From contig NZ_JAUOZU010000001.1 of assembly GCF_030551875.1 (NCBI RefSeq), positions 496,001 to 560,000 of the forward strand: a stretch of 64,000 nucleotides of DNA, in the 5' to 3' direction. The DNA is from Fluviirhizobium alvei. Lineage in GTDB: Bacteria; Pseudomonadota; Alphaproteobacteria; Rhizobiales; Rhizobiaceae. Position numbers and translations under genes: made by a program. Shown here piece by piece: positions 45,401 to 59,800 of this stretch (its first letter is position 1; each line of letters opens with the position of its first letter). The notes under the pieces were generated by a model. It saw only the letters and a program-made list of their open reading frames with translations. It searched no databases and was not told the DNA's origin.

Positions 45401-45955
45401 GTGCCGCCGCGCATCCTCATCGATGCCAATGTGCTTTACCGCACCCGCCTGCGCGAACTGCTGCTGGCGCAAGCCTCAACCGGGCTTGTCCGTCCGCTCT
45501 GGAGTGTGCGGATCATCGAGGAATGCGCGTCCGGTCTCGTGCGCAACGGTGCGCTCGATGGCGCGGCGCGGGAGGGGTTTATCACAAGCCTGTCTGCTCC
45601 GGCCTATATCGCCTCGGGCCACGAGGCGCTTGAGGGAACGTTCGGGCTTCCGGATCCCGATGACGAGCATGTGCTGGCCGCAGCCGTTCATGCGGGTGCG
45701 GGCCTTATCCTCAGTTTCAATCTGAAGGATTTCCCCGTCCGTCGCCTCAAACCGCTTGGGGTGAGGGCGGAAATGCCGGATAGCTTCTTCCTCGGGCTCC
45801 TCGGTGATCGGTCGGATAGTTTCCTTGATGCCGTGGAGAAGGCAAGGGCGACGATTGCGCCGGACCTGCCGCAGGAGGAACATTTCGCCATGCTGCGCCG
45901 CGCCGGCATTCCCCGGACCGTGAAACGCTGTCTGCAGATCATCAACGACCCGTAG
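45401..45955 (+). CDS. Orphan PIN-domain protein
   Basis: 184 residues from a GTG at 45401 with GAGGT upstream, 7 bp after the betA stop. The PIN ribonuclease fold is suggested by ILIDANVLYRTRLRELLL (first Asp), IIEECASGLV (Glu) and DPDDEHVLAAAVHAGAGLILSFNLKDFP (later acids). VapC-like toxins of this kind usually have an antitoxin gene just before them, but here the preceding gene is betA. It may be a solitary toxin, an RNA-processing enzyme or the remnant of a lost pair. Confidence 0.78.
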   Translation: MPPRILIDANVLYRTRLRELLLAQASTGLVRPLWSVRIIEECASGLVRNGALDGAAREGFITSLSAPAYIASGHEALEGTFGLPDPDDEHVLAAAVHAGAGLILSFNLKDFPVRRLKPLGVRAEMPDSFFLGLLGDRSDSFLDAVEKARATIAPDLPQEEHFAMLRRAGIPRTVKRCLQIINDP

Positions 45956-55169: not shown

Positions 55170-56342
<1,173 letters not shown>

Positions 56343-56517: not shown

Positions 56518-56643
56518 CTTCTCCCCTCGGGGAGAAGATGTCCGAAGGACAGATGAGGGGGGGAGCCCTCCAGACACCTGTCACTTCGCCGCAATCCCCC
56601 TCATCCGGCGCTATCGCGCCACCTTCTCCCCGCTGGGGAGAAG
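56518..56643. repeat. RIME-like palindromic repeat after ccrM
   Basis: Two hairpins of the CTTCTCCC...GGGAGAAG type (56518-56537 and 56623-56643) with complementary inner arms (GATGAGGGGGG against CCCCCTCATC) make a ~126-bp palindromic unit like the RIME repeats of rhizobia. It fills most of the 360-bp gene-free stretch between ccrM and the cysteine-rich gene; nothing else was recognised there. Confidence 0.65.
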
Positions 56644-56702: not shown

Positions 56703-56885
56703 TTACCGGCGTTCGCCGGGCCGTTCCGCCTGCGGGCGTTTAAGCGTGACGCCTTCGATTTCCGCGAGCGCTTTCCAATCGAGGCATCCGGCCCCCTCCG
56801 AACAGGCGTTGCAATCGCTGCAGCTCGAAACAACCGAACCGTTGACAGTATCCGAATGGGGCAAGTCGCGAACGAAGAGGGTCAT
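56703..56885 (-). CDS. 60-residue cysteine-rich peptide
   Basis: A small gene starting at ATG 56883-56885 with AAGGA about 8 nt upstream inside the end of the aldolase gene, whose stop is 5 bp away. It encodes 60 residues with four cysteines in a compact Cys22-x2-Cys25-x2-Cys28-x5-Cys34 cluster (SSCSDCNACSEGAGCLDW), suited to bind Zn or a Fe-S cluster. The rest is polar. It is the last gene of the dioxygenase-aldolase operon. No family was recognised; a metal-binding partner or electron carrier of the dioxygenase is a guess. Confidence 0.6.
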   Translation of the reverse strand: MTLFVRDLPHSDTVNGSVVSSCSDCNACSEGAGCLDWKALAEIEGVTLKRPQAERPGERR

Positions 56886-56890
56886 GGCAT

Positions 56891-57637
56891 TCAATCCTTG
56901 TAGGAGGGATCGGTCGCGTCGAGACGCGATTTGAGATAGGCGAAATGCTCGAATGCCATGCCGCGATAATCGTCCCAGCCGGCGGCGGTCTTTTCGGCGA
57001 CCTCGTCGGAGAGCACATTGAGCGGCTGACCGGTCGAATAGGCCAGGATCTGGGTCTGCGCCGCCCGTTCGAAGAAATAGAGATCCTCGAAGGCTTCGGC
57101 GACGGTCTGGCCGGCGCAGGCCACACCGTGATTGCCCATCATCAGCGTCTTGTGATTGCCGAGCGATTGCACGAGCCGCATGCCTTCCGCATCCTCGTCG
57201 GCAATGCCGCCGAAGCCGAGATCGACACCGGTGCGGTTGAAGAAACGCGCCGTGTTGTTGTCGAGCGGCTTGAGCGTCGGATCCTTCAGCGTCGACAAAG
57301 CCGTCGAATAGGGCGGGTGGCAATGAAGGAGCACCCGCACCGAAGGCCGTTTTCGGTGGATCGTGCCATGTACGGTCCAGGCCGACGCATCCGGCGCATT
57401 GGGACCCGTCATCACGTCCGGATCGTCGGCATTCAGGAGCAGCAGGTCGCTGGCCCGGATCGACCCGAAATGTTTCCATTTCGGGTTCATCAGGAAGGTC
57501 TTGCCATCGGCTGAGACAGCAGCGCTGAAATGGTTTCCGACCGATTCATGCCAGCCGAACTCGACCGCCAGCCGGAAGGCGGCGGCGAGATCGATGCGCA
57601 GCTGAATCAGGTCGTCGCCCGAAAGATCGCCCGTCAT
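56891..57637 (-). CDS. Class II aldolase/adducin-like protein
   Basis: 248 residues. The fold is recognised by FGWHESVGNHFSAAVS, VRVLLHCHPPYSTALS (zinc ligands His105 and His107) and LMMGNHGVACAGQTVAEAFEDLYFFERAA (third His). The catalytic Glu of fuculose-phosphate aldolase (in its SSEW block) is replaced, since this protein reads DASAWTVHG. It is therefore an adducin-type member whose reaction is uncertain. The ATG overlaps the dioxygenase stop (ATGA), indicating coupling with that enzyme. Confidence 0.9.
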   Translation of the reverse strand: MTGDLSGDDLIQLRIDLAAAFRLAVEFGWHESVGNHFSAAVSADGKTFLMNPKWKHFGSIRASDLLLLNADDPDVMTGPNAPDASAWTVHGTIHRKRPSVRVLLHCHPPYSTALSTLKDPTLKPLDNNTARFFNRTGVDLGFGGIADEDAEGMRLVQSLGNHKTLMMGNHGVACAGQTVAEAFEDLYFFERAAQTQILAYSTGQPLNVLSDEVAEKTAAGWDDYRGMAFEHFAYLKSRLDATDPSYKD

Positions 57638-58788
57638 TTGAAACGGCCTTCCGAGACCAGCGCGCGGTAGGTCGAGCGCATTTCGCCGCGGTCGGCATAG
57701 CAGCCGCGCAGGTAGCGGTCGCCGCTGGTGGCCGAGTAGGCCGAACGGCCATGCACGATGCGGTGATTGTCGAACACGATGCATTCGGTGGCTTCGAGCC
57801 GGAAGCGCATCAGATATTTGTCGGACTGCAGCATGCGGCCGAAGCGGCAGAAGGCCGGGTAATACTTGTCGAGGAAGGCCTGGTCGAGATCGAAAATGTC
57901 GGCCATGTGCTGGCTGATCGTGACGCCCGAGACTTCGCCATGCTGGTCGAGTTCGATCACCCGCTGGCGCGAGCGCATGTCATAGGTGTCATGCTCGCAG
58001 TAATAAGGGATCTCGGTTTCCGACAGCAGCTTGAAATCGTCCGGGAACTGTTCGCGCAGATCATTGGCCACAGCAACGCCATCGAGGAACAGGTTCTGGC
58101 CGCCCTCGACACTGTTGGCGCGCACATGCAGGAACTGCACGCCCGGCGCCACGTCTTCCGCCGGCGTATCGGTATGCATTTCGAGCGCCTTGGCAGTGTA
58201 GGCGAGGTTGGTCGGCTTGATATGCGTCTTGACGTCGAAATATTCGCCGAAGAAGGTCGGTCGTACATGGCCCATCAGGCGCACGAGATCGGTCAGGCCC
58301 TCATGGCTGTCCGGCATCGCGGTAACGATCGCAACACCTTCGACGATCATTGCCTCGAGCCAGGCGGCCACCGCCTTCTTGTCTGCCATCAGCGTCGCAT
58401 GGTCGAAACGGGCGATATCCGGATAATGGTCTGAATACCAGGCGCGGCGCGGCAGGTCGGCCGGGTCGTGGCGCACCTTGCCTTCGCTATACTGGCCGAG
58501 CCAGGCGAGATCATAGCGGCTCTTGTGGCCATCGCCGGCCCAGGTGATCGCGAGCGCGCCGTCTTCGATTGCTGCTTCCGCGGGCTTGGGCGCCGCATCG
58601 AGATGGAAAATGTCGAACACGCGTTCGCGCGTCTGGCTGTCGAACGAACTCGCGCAATTGTCGCGCAGCCAGTAATAATTGAAATAGCCGGTCTTGCCGT
58701 TGGGCAGGGCAACCTCAAGGCCGTTTTCCTTCAACGTGAGAGCCGAGGGGTTGGTGACGCGAGCGTCCATGAATTCATTCCTTTTCAA
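57634..58788 (-). CDS. Gamma-butyrobetaine/trimethyllysine hydroxylase-like 2OG dioxygenase
   Basis: 384 residues. A short N-terminal DUF971-like domain (GYFNYYWLRDNCASSFDSQTRERVFDIFHLD) precedes a TauD/TfdA domain. Iron ligands are His205 and Asp207 (ALEMHTDTPAED) and the distal His346 (DNHRIVHGRSAY). This is the layout of gamma-butyrobetaine and trimethyllysine hydroxylases, which use Fe(II), 2-oxoglutarate and O2. The DUF971 zinc cysteines of those enzymes are mostly missing here (LRDNCASSF has one). It is the first gene of an operon with an adducin-like aldolase and a Cys-rich peptide, divergent from a LysR gene. A trimethylammonium substrate is likely but unproven. Confidence 0.85.
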   Translation of the reverse strand: MKRNEFMDARVTNPSALTLKENGLEVALPNGKTGYFNYYWLRDNCASSFDSQTRERVFDIFHLDAAPKPAEAAIEDGALAITWAGDGHKSRYDLAWLGQYSEGKVRHDPADLPRRAWYSDHYPDIARFDHATLMADKKAVAAWLEAMIVEGVAIVTAMPDSHEGLTDLVRLMGHVRPTFFGEYFDVKTHIKPTNLAYTAKALEMHTDTPAEDVAPGVQFLHVRANSVEGGQNLFLDGVAVANDLREQFPDDFKLLSETEIPYYCEHDTYDMRSRQRVIELDQHGEVSGVTISQHMADIFDLDQAFLDKYYPAFCRFGRMLQSDKYLMRFRLEATECIVFDNHRIVHGRSAYSATSGDRYLRGCYADRGEMRSTYRALVSEGRFK

Positions 58789-58900
58789 CTTATGTAATGT
58801 TGCGGCGCACTTACCAATCGCCTGCTGATATCTGGACGATAATTCCGATTTCGGTTAGGGAGAATATGGGAAATGTTAAATTTAATATAAGCATGGTGTT
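58789..58900. promoter_or_regulatory. Divergent promoter, dioxygenase operon / LysR
   Basis: 112 bp between the two divergent starts. Palindromic pieces include CCGATTTCGG (58845-58854) and TTAAATTTAA (58876-58885), the sort of sites LysR proteins bind. The right half is AT-rich. Confidence 0.4.
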
Positions 58901-59800
58901 ATGATGCCAGATCGCCTGTTGCCCCCCTTGCGGCTGTTGACCGTGTTCGAGACGGTGCTGCGTGCCGGCAACATCCAGCGGGCGGCAGCCGAGCTCAATG
59001 TCACCCAGCCGGCTGTCAGTCAGGCGCTGAAGGCGCTGGAGGATTATGTCGGGCTCAGGCTACTCGATCGCAGCACGCGACCGGCGACACTCACCGAGGC
59101 GGGACGCATCCTGCAGATCGGCGTGACAGAGGGGCTTGATCGCATCGCCGAAGCTGTCGAACAAGTCCGCAATCTCGACCGGGCGGCTGGGCAATCGGTC
59201 ACCATCGCCTGTTCGGTCGGCACCGCCACCTATTGGCTGATGCCGCGTCTGGCCGGTTTTTACACCGAACAGCCCGATATCGCCGTCAACGTTATGACCA
59301 CGCCCGGCTCGCCCGAATTCCAGCCGGGCATGGATCTCGCCATCCGCTACGGCACCGGCAACTGGAAGGATGGCCGCATCGTCAAGCTGTTCGACGAGCG
59401 GGTGGTGCCGGTCTGCAGTCCCGATCTCGCCGCCGAAATCGGTGGCGAAGCCGGCCTCTTACGGGCGACACTTCTCCATGTCCGCAGCAGCGACCGCAGC
59501 TGGTTGACCTGGAAGGACTATTTCGACCTCAACAACCTGCCGGAAAACCGCACGCTCGGCCGCTATTTCACCAACTATATCCAGGCCACGCAGGCCGCCC
59601 TTTCGGGCCAGGGGGTAATGCTGGGCTGGGAATCCAACACCGGCGATCTCGTGCGCGAAGGCCGGCTGGTGACCCTGGGCGGCACGCCCATGGTGCCGAA
59701 GGAAGCGTTCTATCTCGTGGTGCCGGACCGGCGCGACCGCAAACCGGCAAGCGATCTCCTCGAAGCCTGGATCAGGCGGATCGCTGCCGGGCATGGATAG
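58901..59800 (+). CDS. LysR-family regulator of the dioxygenase operon
   Basis: 299 residues. N-terminal helix-turn-helix (LRLLTVFETVLRAGNIQRAAAELNVTQPAVSQALKALEDYVGLRLLDR) and a substrate-binding domain with ACSVGTATYWLMPRLAGFYTEQPDIAVNVMTTPGSPEFQPGMDLAIRYGTGNW, the GcvA type. It most likely activates the divergent dioxygenase/aldolase/Cys-rich operon in response to a substrate. Two ATGs in tandem at 58901 and 58904 leave the first residue uncertain. It ends 24 bp before the end of smc on the opposite strand. Confidence 0.93.
   Translation: MMPDRLLPPLRLLTVFETVLRAGNIQRAAAELNVTQPAVSQALKALEDYVGLRLLDRSTRPATLTEAGRILQIGVTEGLDRIAEAVEQVRNLDRAAGQSVTIACSVGTATYWLMPRLAGFYTEQPDIAVNVMTTPGSPEFQPGMDLAIRYGTGNWKDGRIVKLFDERVVPVCSPDLAAEIGGEAGLLRATLLHVRSSDRSWLTWKDYFDLNNLPENRTLGRYFTNYIQATQAALSGQGVMLGWESNTGDLVREGRLVTLGGTPMVPKEAFYLVVPDRRDRKPASDLLEAWIRRIAAGHG

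Follow-up and report, generated by a model that had tools for sequence, protein, structure and literature searches.

A conserved pair of a BBOX/TmpA-like dioxygenase and an aldolase-fold protein in Alphaproteobacteria, a candidate module for the catabolism of a trimethylammonium compound

The locus lies in a stretch of 64,000 nucleotides from Fluviirhizobium alvei, which was analysed as a whole and is referred to here as the window. Pfam searches assigned one gene to the TauD and GBBH-like_N families, each above its cut-off, the next to Aldolase_II and the divergent gene to LysR. The features are as follows.

56703-56885, minus strand: Cys-rich ORF of 60 aa, probably outside the conserved system (no convincing homologue; codon-position G+C)
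56891-57637, minus strand: predicted class II aldolase/adducin-fold metalloenzyme of the PRK07490 family, 248 aa (NCBIfam, AF2 model, fold and profile comparison, conservation)
57634-58770, minus strand: TauD-family Fe(II)/2OG dioxygenase with a degenerate GBBH-like N-domain, 378 aa, ATG start (Pfam, NCBIfam, PDB, fold and residue comparison)
58771-58900, no strand: shared intergenic region, presumed promoter/operator from its position between the divergent genes
58901-59800, plus strand: LysR-family gene, presumed regulator of the pair, 299 aa (Pfam; divergent homologue at related loci)

The dioxygenase and aldolase-like genes overlap by ATGA, within TTTCAAATGACG, the Cys-rich ORF starts after a gap of 5 bp from the aldolase stop codon, and the LysR gene is transcribed away from the dioxygenase gene. 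All three arrangements had been described in the original prediction and are borne out by the coordinates; the dioxygenase gene that it placed here is also present, with an ATG start at 58770 instead of the upstream TTG at 58788. This gene is the sole TauD-family gene detected in the genome. The closest NCBIfam model to the LysR protein is a choline-sulfate regulator (225 bits, under the cut-off of 325), and the protein presumably controls the pair. The choline-to-betaine genes betB and betA were identified inside the window (BetA, 937 bits against a cut-off of 732; BetB, 756 bits against 669); as they lie 12-18 kb from the pair, the earlier description of choline/betaine genes as nearby holds loosely.

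Other features were observed around these genes. A PIN-domain gene (45401-45955) is located directly downstream of betA, and a CcrM-like DNA methylase with a RAMA domain (55197-56342) adjoins the operon. Downstream of the small ORF, an intergenic element at 56523-56637 contains an imperfect inverted repeat (CCCCTCGGGGAGAAGATG ... CACCTTCTCCCCGCTGGG), which resembles the intergenic mosaic repeats of rhizobia.

The Cys-rich ORF had been proposed as the third component of a coupled three-gene system. It matches no Pfam family, and a search of 61 genomes, including eight others of the genus, returned only the window's own match and one weak match interrupted by stop codons. It is likewise absent from the related loci that were compared. 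The Shine-Dalgarno-like AAGGA ahead of it coincides with the C-terminal Lys-Asp codons of the aldolase-like gene itself, and its codon-position G+C is less gene-like than that of its neighbours. Since neither 60 related genomes nor the related loci offer a convincing relative, we rejected the peptide as a component, and the ORF probably lies outside the system.

The coupling of the other two genes recurs widely, as the synteny comparison suggested in the original prediction revealed. Named genomes from Rhizobiales, Sphingomonadales and Rhodobacterales were scanned, which yielded 80 loci encoding a closely related dioxygenase; 73 of them have the aldolase-like gene adjacent to the dioxygenase gene, and 65 have a divergent LysR homologue, more than chance would give. 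A less biased check on linkage is provided by 199 genomes of the order, sampled without regard to linkage, in which the LysR-dioxygenase-aldolase set was found in all four orthologous loci (the window and three others). The conserved unit is a two-gene module with its regulator. In a quick tree of 134 aldolase-like sequences, one supported clade comprises 79 members, every one of them linked to a dioxygenase gene; this contrast between linked and unlinked sequences is partly built in, because the dioxygenase served as query in finding most of the loci. Three further linked sequences (L097, L099 and G395, the last equivalent to L126/L154) fall in the sister group, and there the aldolase-like gene precedes the dioxygenase gene, which indicates that the association survives rearrangement. 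Within the genus, six of the eight other genomes keep the dioxygenase and LysR genes without a linked aldolase-like gene, and all nine genomes, including that of the window, carry an aldolase paralogue of 50-52% identity elsewhere. In the window's genome, a second PRK07490-type gene lies on contig C5 (61117-61830, locus L132); its product is 50% identical, it adjoins an Lrp-type regulator with no dioxygenase alongside, and each searched genome of the genus contains its counterpart. Our literature search, in which subscription journals were thinly covered, found no study of the pair.

The dioxygenase was compared with three characterized families, and it scored under the cut-off of each model: 288 bits for TmpA (NF049936, equivalog cut-off 400), 283 bits for gamma-butyrobetaine (GBB) hydroxylase, GBBH (TIGR02409, equivalog cut-off 414.75), and 189 bits, the lowest of the three, for trimethyllysine hydroxylase, TMLH (TIGR02410, cut-off 268). 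Its closest solved structure by sequence is TmpA (PDB search, 9e-55), and the fold of its predicted model (pLDDT 87) is that of TmpA and BBOX, with TmpA nearest. Residue comparison indicated that the Fe ligands H199, D201 and H340 and the 2OG-binding Arg (R352) are kept and that the cation-cage positions are aromatic (F174, F178, Y191 and Y358). The anion site comprises N188, Q287 and H288. N188 retains the Asn of BBOX position 191, the position of BBOX Asn292 is occupied by Ser286, with Ser in 33 of 33 close relatives, and Asn287/Arg288 of TmpA are replaced by Gln287/His288, which are invariant in the same 33. The roles of the anion-site residues in BBOX and TmpA have been described (PMC12067446, PMC9296572), the second BBOX Asn being numbered one apart in the two papers. 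Of the Zn-binding cysteines of the N-domain only Cys39 is left, and it is not fully conserved. Their loss had been taken as a sign of new chemistry; the cysteines are indeed mostly gone, and we rejected the conclusion of chemistry peculiar to this protein, since near-loss is common to the dioxygenase clade and TmpA.

Given that TmpA is the best match by sequence and fold, the dioxygenase could be a TmpA-like hydroxylase of 2-trimethylaminoethylphosphonate, with the aldolase-like enzyme handling a related carboxylate or serving a separate function. At two loci, L021 (4233-12656) and L044 (573-9140), the dioxygenase gene lies beside genes resembling phnI/phnJ of C-P lyase, named by eye; L021 has no linked aldolase-like gene and L044 only a fragment. 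Since TmpA acts on a phosphonate, these neighbours are suggestive, although there are only two such cases and phosphonate genes were recognised at no other loci. The score of 288 bits against a cut-off of 400 and the replacement of Arg288 by His also argue against this assignment, which we regard as quite improbable.

The partner protein scored above the cut-off of PRK07490 (NF005689; 361 bits against 260), an NCBIfam family with no assigned function, and its AF2 model is confident (pLDDT 94). By fold and profile it is nearest to the uncharacterised structure 3ocr, followed by TqaM, NovR and the pyruvic oxime dioxygenase POD, and the match to FucA, a class II aldolase with the same fold and metal-binding His, is far weaker. 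The metal-binding H105, H107 and H170 (HxH...H) are invariant. Position 73 of FucA, the catalytic Glu, corresponds to Ala86, and the residue is Ala in 133 of the 134 sequences compared and Gly in one; NovR, TqaM, 3ocr and 4xxf also have Ala or Gly there. The missing Glu that the original prediction pointed out is thus real, and as a sign of new chemistry peculiar to this protein it was rejected, being a trait of the whole family. In the linked clade, W29, W54, W221, D147, R131 and E184 are fixed, and they mostly differ outside it. TqaM converts 3-amino-2-hydroxy-3-methylbutanoate to 2-aminoisobutyrate, one carbon shorter, by decarboxylative oxidation (PMC11880133), CloR and NovR shorten 2-hydroxy acids using three His, iron and O2 (PMC13111500), and POD is an iron dioxygenase of the same fold (PMC11841055). 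By sequence and predicted fold, the "aldolase" therefore appears nearer to O2-using iron enzymes than to true aldolases, yet adducin, 3ocr and 4xxf, the last of which is annotated as an aldolase, are no more distant. At only about 20-25% identity to NovR, TqaM and POD, with 4xxf equally close and the non-catalytic adducin in the same branch, its reaction type cannot be read from these similarities.

These results bear on the analogy with carnitine synthesis drawn in the original prediction. Spelled out, trimethyllysine would be hydroxylated and then cleaved by an aldolase, giving glycine and trimethylaminobutyraldehyde for the neighbouring GBB route. Such a reaction would supply GBB to the carnitine genes found beside the pair at other loci, and a PuuC/BADH-like aldehyde dehydrogenase gene lies near the pair at some of them; at most carnitine-type loci no such gene occurs in the stretch examined. 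The TMLH model is the weakest of the three, and in the partner enzyme the catalytic Glu is missing and the nearest matches are iron enzymes. HTML aldolase activity is known from PLP enzymes, which also speaks against the analogy, and we know of no metal-dependent aldolase of this fold that acts on a beta-hydroxy-alpha-amino acid. The analogy is thus weak, and we consider this route improbable and less likely than oxidative cleavage.

The genes around the pair point to the class of substrate. Carnitine-catabolism genes lie next to the pair in 14 of the 80 loci, as well as on three annotated plasmids (Palleronia, Thioclava and Sulfitobacter). They are those for acyl-CoA dehydrogenase, CoA ligase, carnitinyl-CoA dehydratase, BKACE and carnitine 3-dehydrogenase, and a Pot-type ABC transporter is often present as well; 5 of the 14 have at least three carnitine genes, and in the other 9 the flank ends after acyl-CoA dehydrogenase and ligase. 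The neighbours of the pair are purU, folD and ETF-QO in Agrobacterium vitis, whose place is taken in Paracoccus seriniphilus by genes for a betaine ABC transporter and a Tdm-like demethylase. The window's own genome harbors a carnitine/GBB catabolic island on contig C10 (about 86408-114000; L210, L211), which encodes CaiD (a homologue of 75%), CoA ligase, acyl-CoA dehydrogenase, carnitine 3-dehydrogenase, BKACE, a Pot-type transporter, LysR, GMC and HIBADH-like proteins, with Tdm/GCV_T-type proteins nearby. Owing to the linkage in other genomes and to this island, a quaternary-amine theme is well supported, in line with the earlier proposal of a hydroxylate-then-cleave pair for a trimethylammonium compound, which the carnitine 3-dehydrogenase, BKACE, carnitinyl-CoA dehydratase and betaine transport and demethylation genes alongside also support. 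Linkage to an unrelated pathway, named at the outset as an argument against such a role, was not found. Overall, the earlier observation was confirmed in part, and its interpretation is partly supported.

Related genes also occur apart from the pair. At three loci (L158, L162 and L163), a PRK07490-type gene with no dioxygenase detected lies beside a ProVW-like betaine ABC transporter, an aldehyde dehydrogenase and a sulfolactate/malate-type 2-hydroxyacid dehydrogenase. The Palleronia plasmid carries a second, different aldolase-like gene of the PRK07044 family (L094, 28096-28830) directly after carnitine 3-dehydrogenase.

The presence of carnitine 3-dehydrogenase and BKACE beside many of the pairs would also fit a dioxygenase that is itself a GBBH, forming L-carnitine without CoA, with the aldolase-like enzyme acting further along, for example as a decarboxylase or lyase on carnitine or 3-dehydrocarnitine. 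The domain architecture (GBBH-like_N and TauD), the fold, the cage positions and the retained Asn191 are those of BBOX/GBBH. However, the 283 bits fall far short of the cut-off (415), the Zn cysteines are lost, and all 33 close relatives have Ser in place of the Asn292 with which BBOX binds the carboxylate. A CoA-dependent route from GBB to carnitine is already encoded by the neighbouring genes and by the C10 island, CaiD included, and a dioxygenase making the same conversion in the window's genome would be redundant. The assignment would furthermore leave the aldolase-like enzyme without a step, and we judge it unlikely, though with an appreciable chance.

A second layout adds genes for GMC alcohol dehydrogenase, aldehyde dehydrogenase, MR/MLE dehydratase and HIBADH-like dehydrogenase, and recurs in Novosphingobium, P. 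seriniphilus, Rhodobacteraceae SC52 and Halocynthiibacter. This recurrence raises the alternative that the pair acts on a larger hydroxylated or polyol-linked quaternary amine in a longer route with these enzymes; the headgroup of a betaine lipid (DGTS) as the substrate of the Novosphingobium-type clusters is only a guess. Neither the window nor most of the other loci have the set, and the chemistry connecting its steps is not obvious, which makes such a route rather improbable as an explanation of the pair.

We tentatively favour, at somewhat less than an even chance, a module that would break down a trimethylammonium compound in two steps, with two iron-dependent enzymes carrying out hydroxylation and then oxidative removal of one carbon; this would be the most economical reading of the pair. 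In the first step, the BBOX/TmpA-like dioxygenase would, like BBOX and TmpA themselves, hydroxylate its substrate at the carbon that is two bonds away from the quaternary nitrogen, a site that would also adjoin the anion. In the second, the aldolase-fold enzyme, resembling NovR and TqaM in its three His and its lack of the catalytic Glu, would act on the alpha-hydroxy acid so formed and, with O2, release its carboxyl carbon as CO2. For example, beta-alanine betaine would be converted to 2-hydroxy-3-trimethylammoniopropionate and then to glycine betaine and CO2, and the products would enter the glycine-betaine demethylation pathway, presumably under LysR control. That the pair is an undescribed bacterial route of this kind, shortening a betaine by one carbon with a 2OG hydroxylase and an aldolase-fold oxidative decarboxylase and leading from beta-alanine betaine or a close relative to glycine betaine, is a more speculative proposal, possible at best. 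As an alternative to oxidative cleavage, the second enzyme may cleave another hydroxylated amine by a true retro-aldol reaction. Counting against the two-step module are the six of eight other genomes of the genus that have no linked aldolase-like gene, and the neighbourhoods in which genes of the GMC, MR/MLE dehydratase and HIBADH-like kinds occur, which a two-step betaine route does not explain.

The proposed module can be compared with systems already described. In the TmpA/TmpB pathway of 2-trimethylaminoethylphosphonate catabolism in Leisingera, TmpA has the same dioxygenase fold, Fe/2OG ligands and aromatic cage and likewise lacks the Zn cysteines. TmpB then acts as an O2-using cleaving enzyme and yields glycine betaine, a sequence of hydroxylation and cleavage that the window pair would share. 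This analogy fits because the dioxygenase is related to TmpA; the substrate of TmpA/TmpB is the phosphonate isostere of beta-alanine betaine. In contrast, the partner in the window has the aldolase fold whereas TmpB is an HD-domain diiron oxygenase, and the anion-site residues are SQH in the window dioxygenase and NNR in TmpA. NovR and TqaM both cut a 2-hydroxy acid oxidatively, but the substrates of NovR/CloR, TqaM and POD are aromatic keto or hydroxy acids, amino-hydroxy acids and an oxime. In gene content alone, as given in its description, an Arctic SAR11 genomic island resembles the system, with two BBOX-like dioxygenases, a class II aldolase, carnitine dehydrogenase, BKACE, betaine transport and choline/aldehyde dehydrogenases (PMC12421898).

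The pair is found across three alphaproteobacterial orders, in bacteria of soil, plants, lakes and the sea, and databases leave it unnamed or label it generically as "hypothetical protein" or "TauD/TfdA family dioxygenase". If the proposed function is true, it would represent a new bacterial way from betaines to glycine betaine, the carboxylate counterpart of the TmpA/TmpB phosphonate route, and annotations of "gamma-butyrobetaine dioxygenase" in such clusters would be corrected. It would also give a function to PRK07490, a large aldolase-fold family that is now classed with the aldolases even though iron and oxygen are used by the nearest relatives that have been studied.
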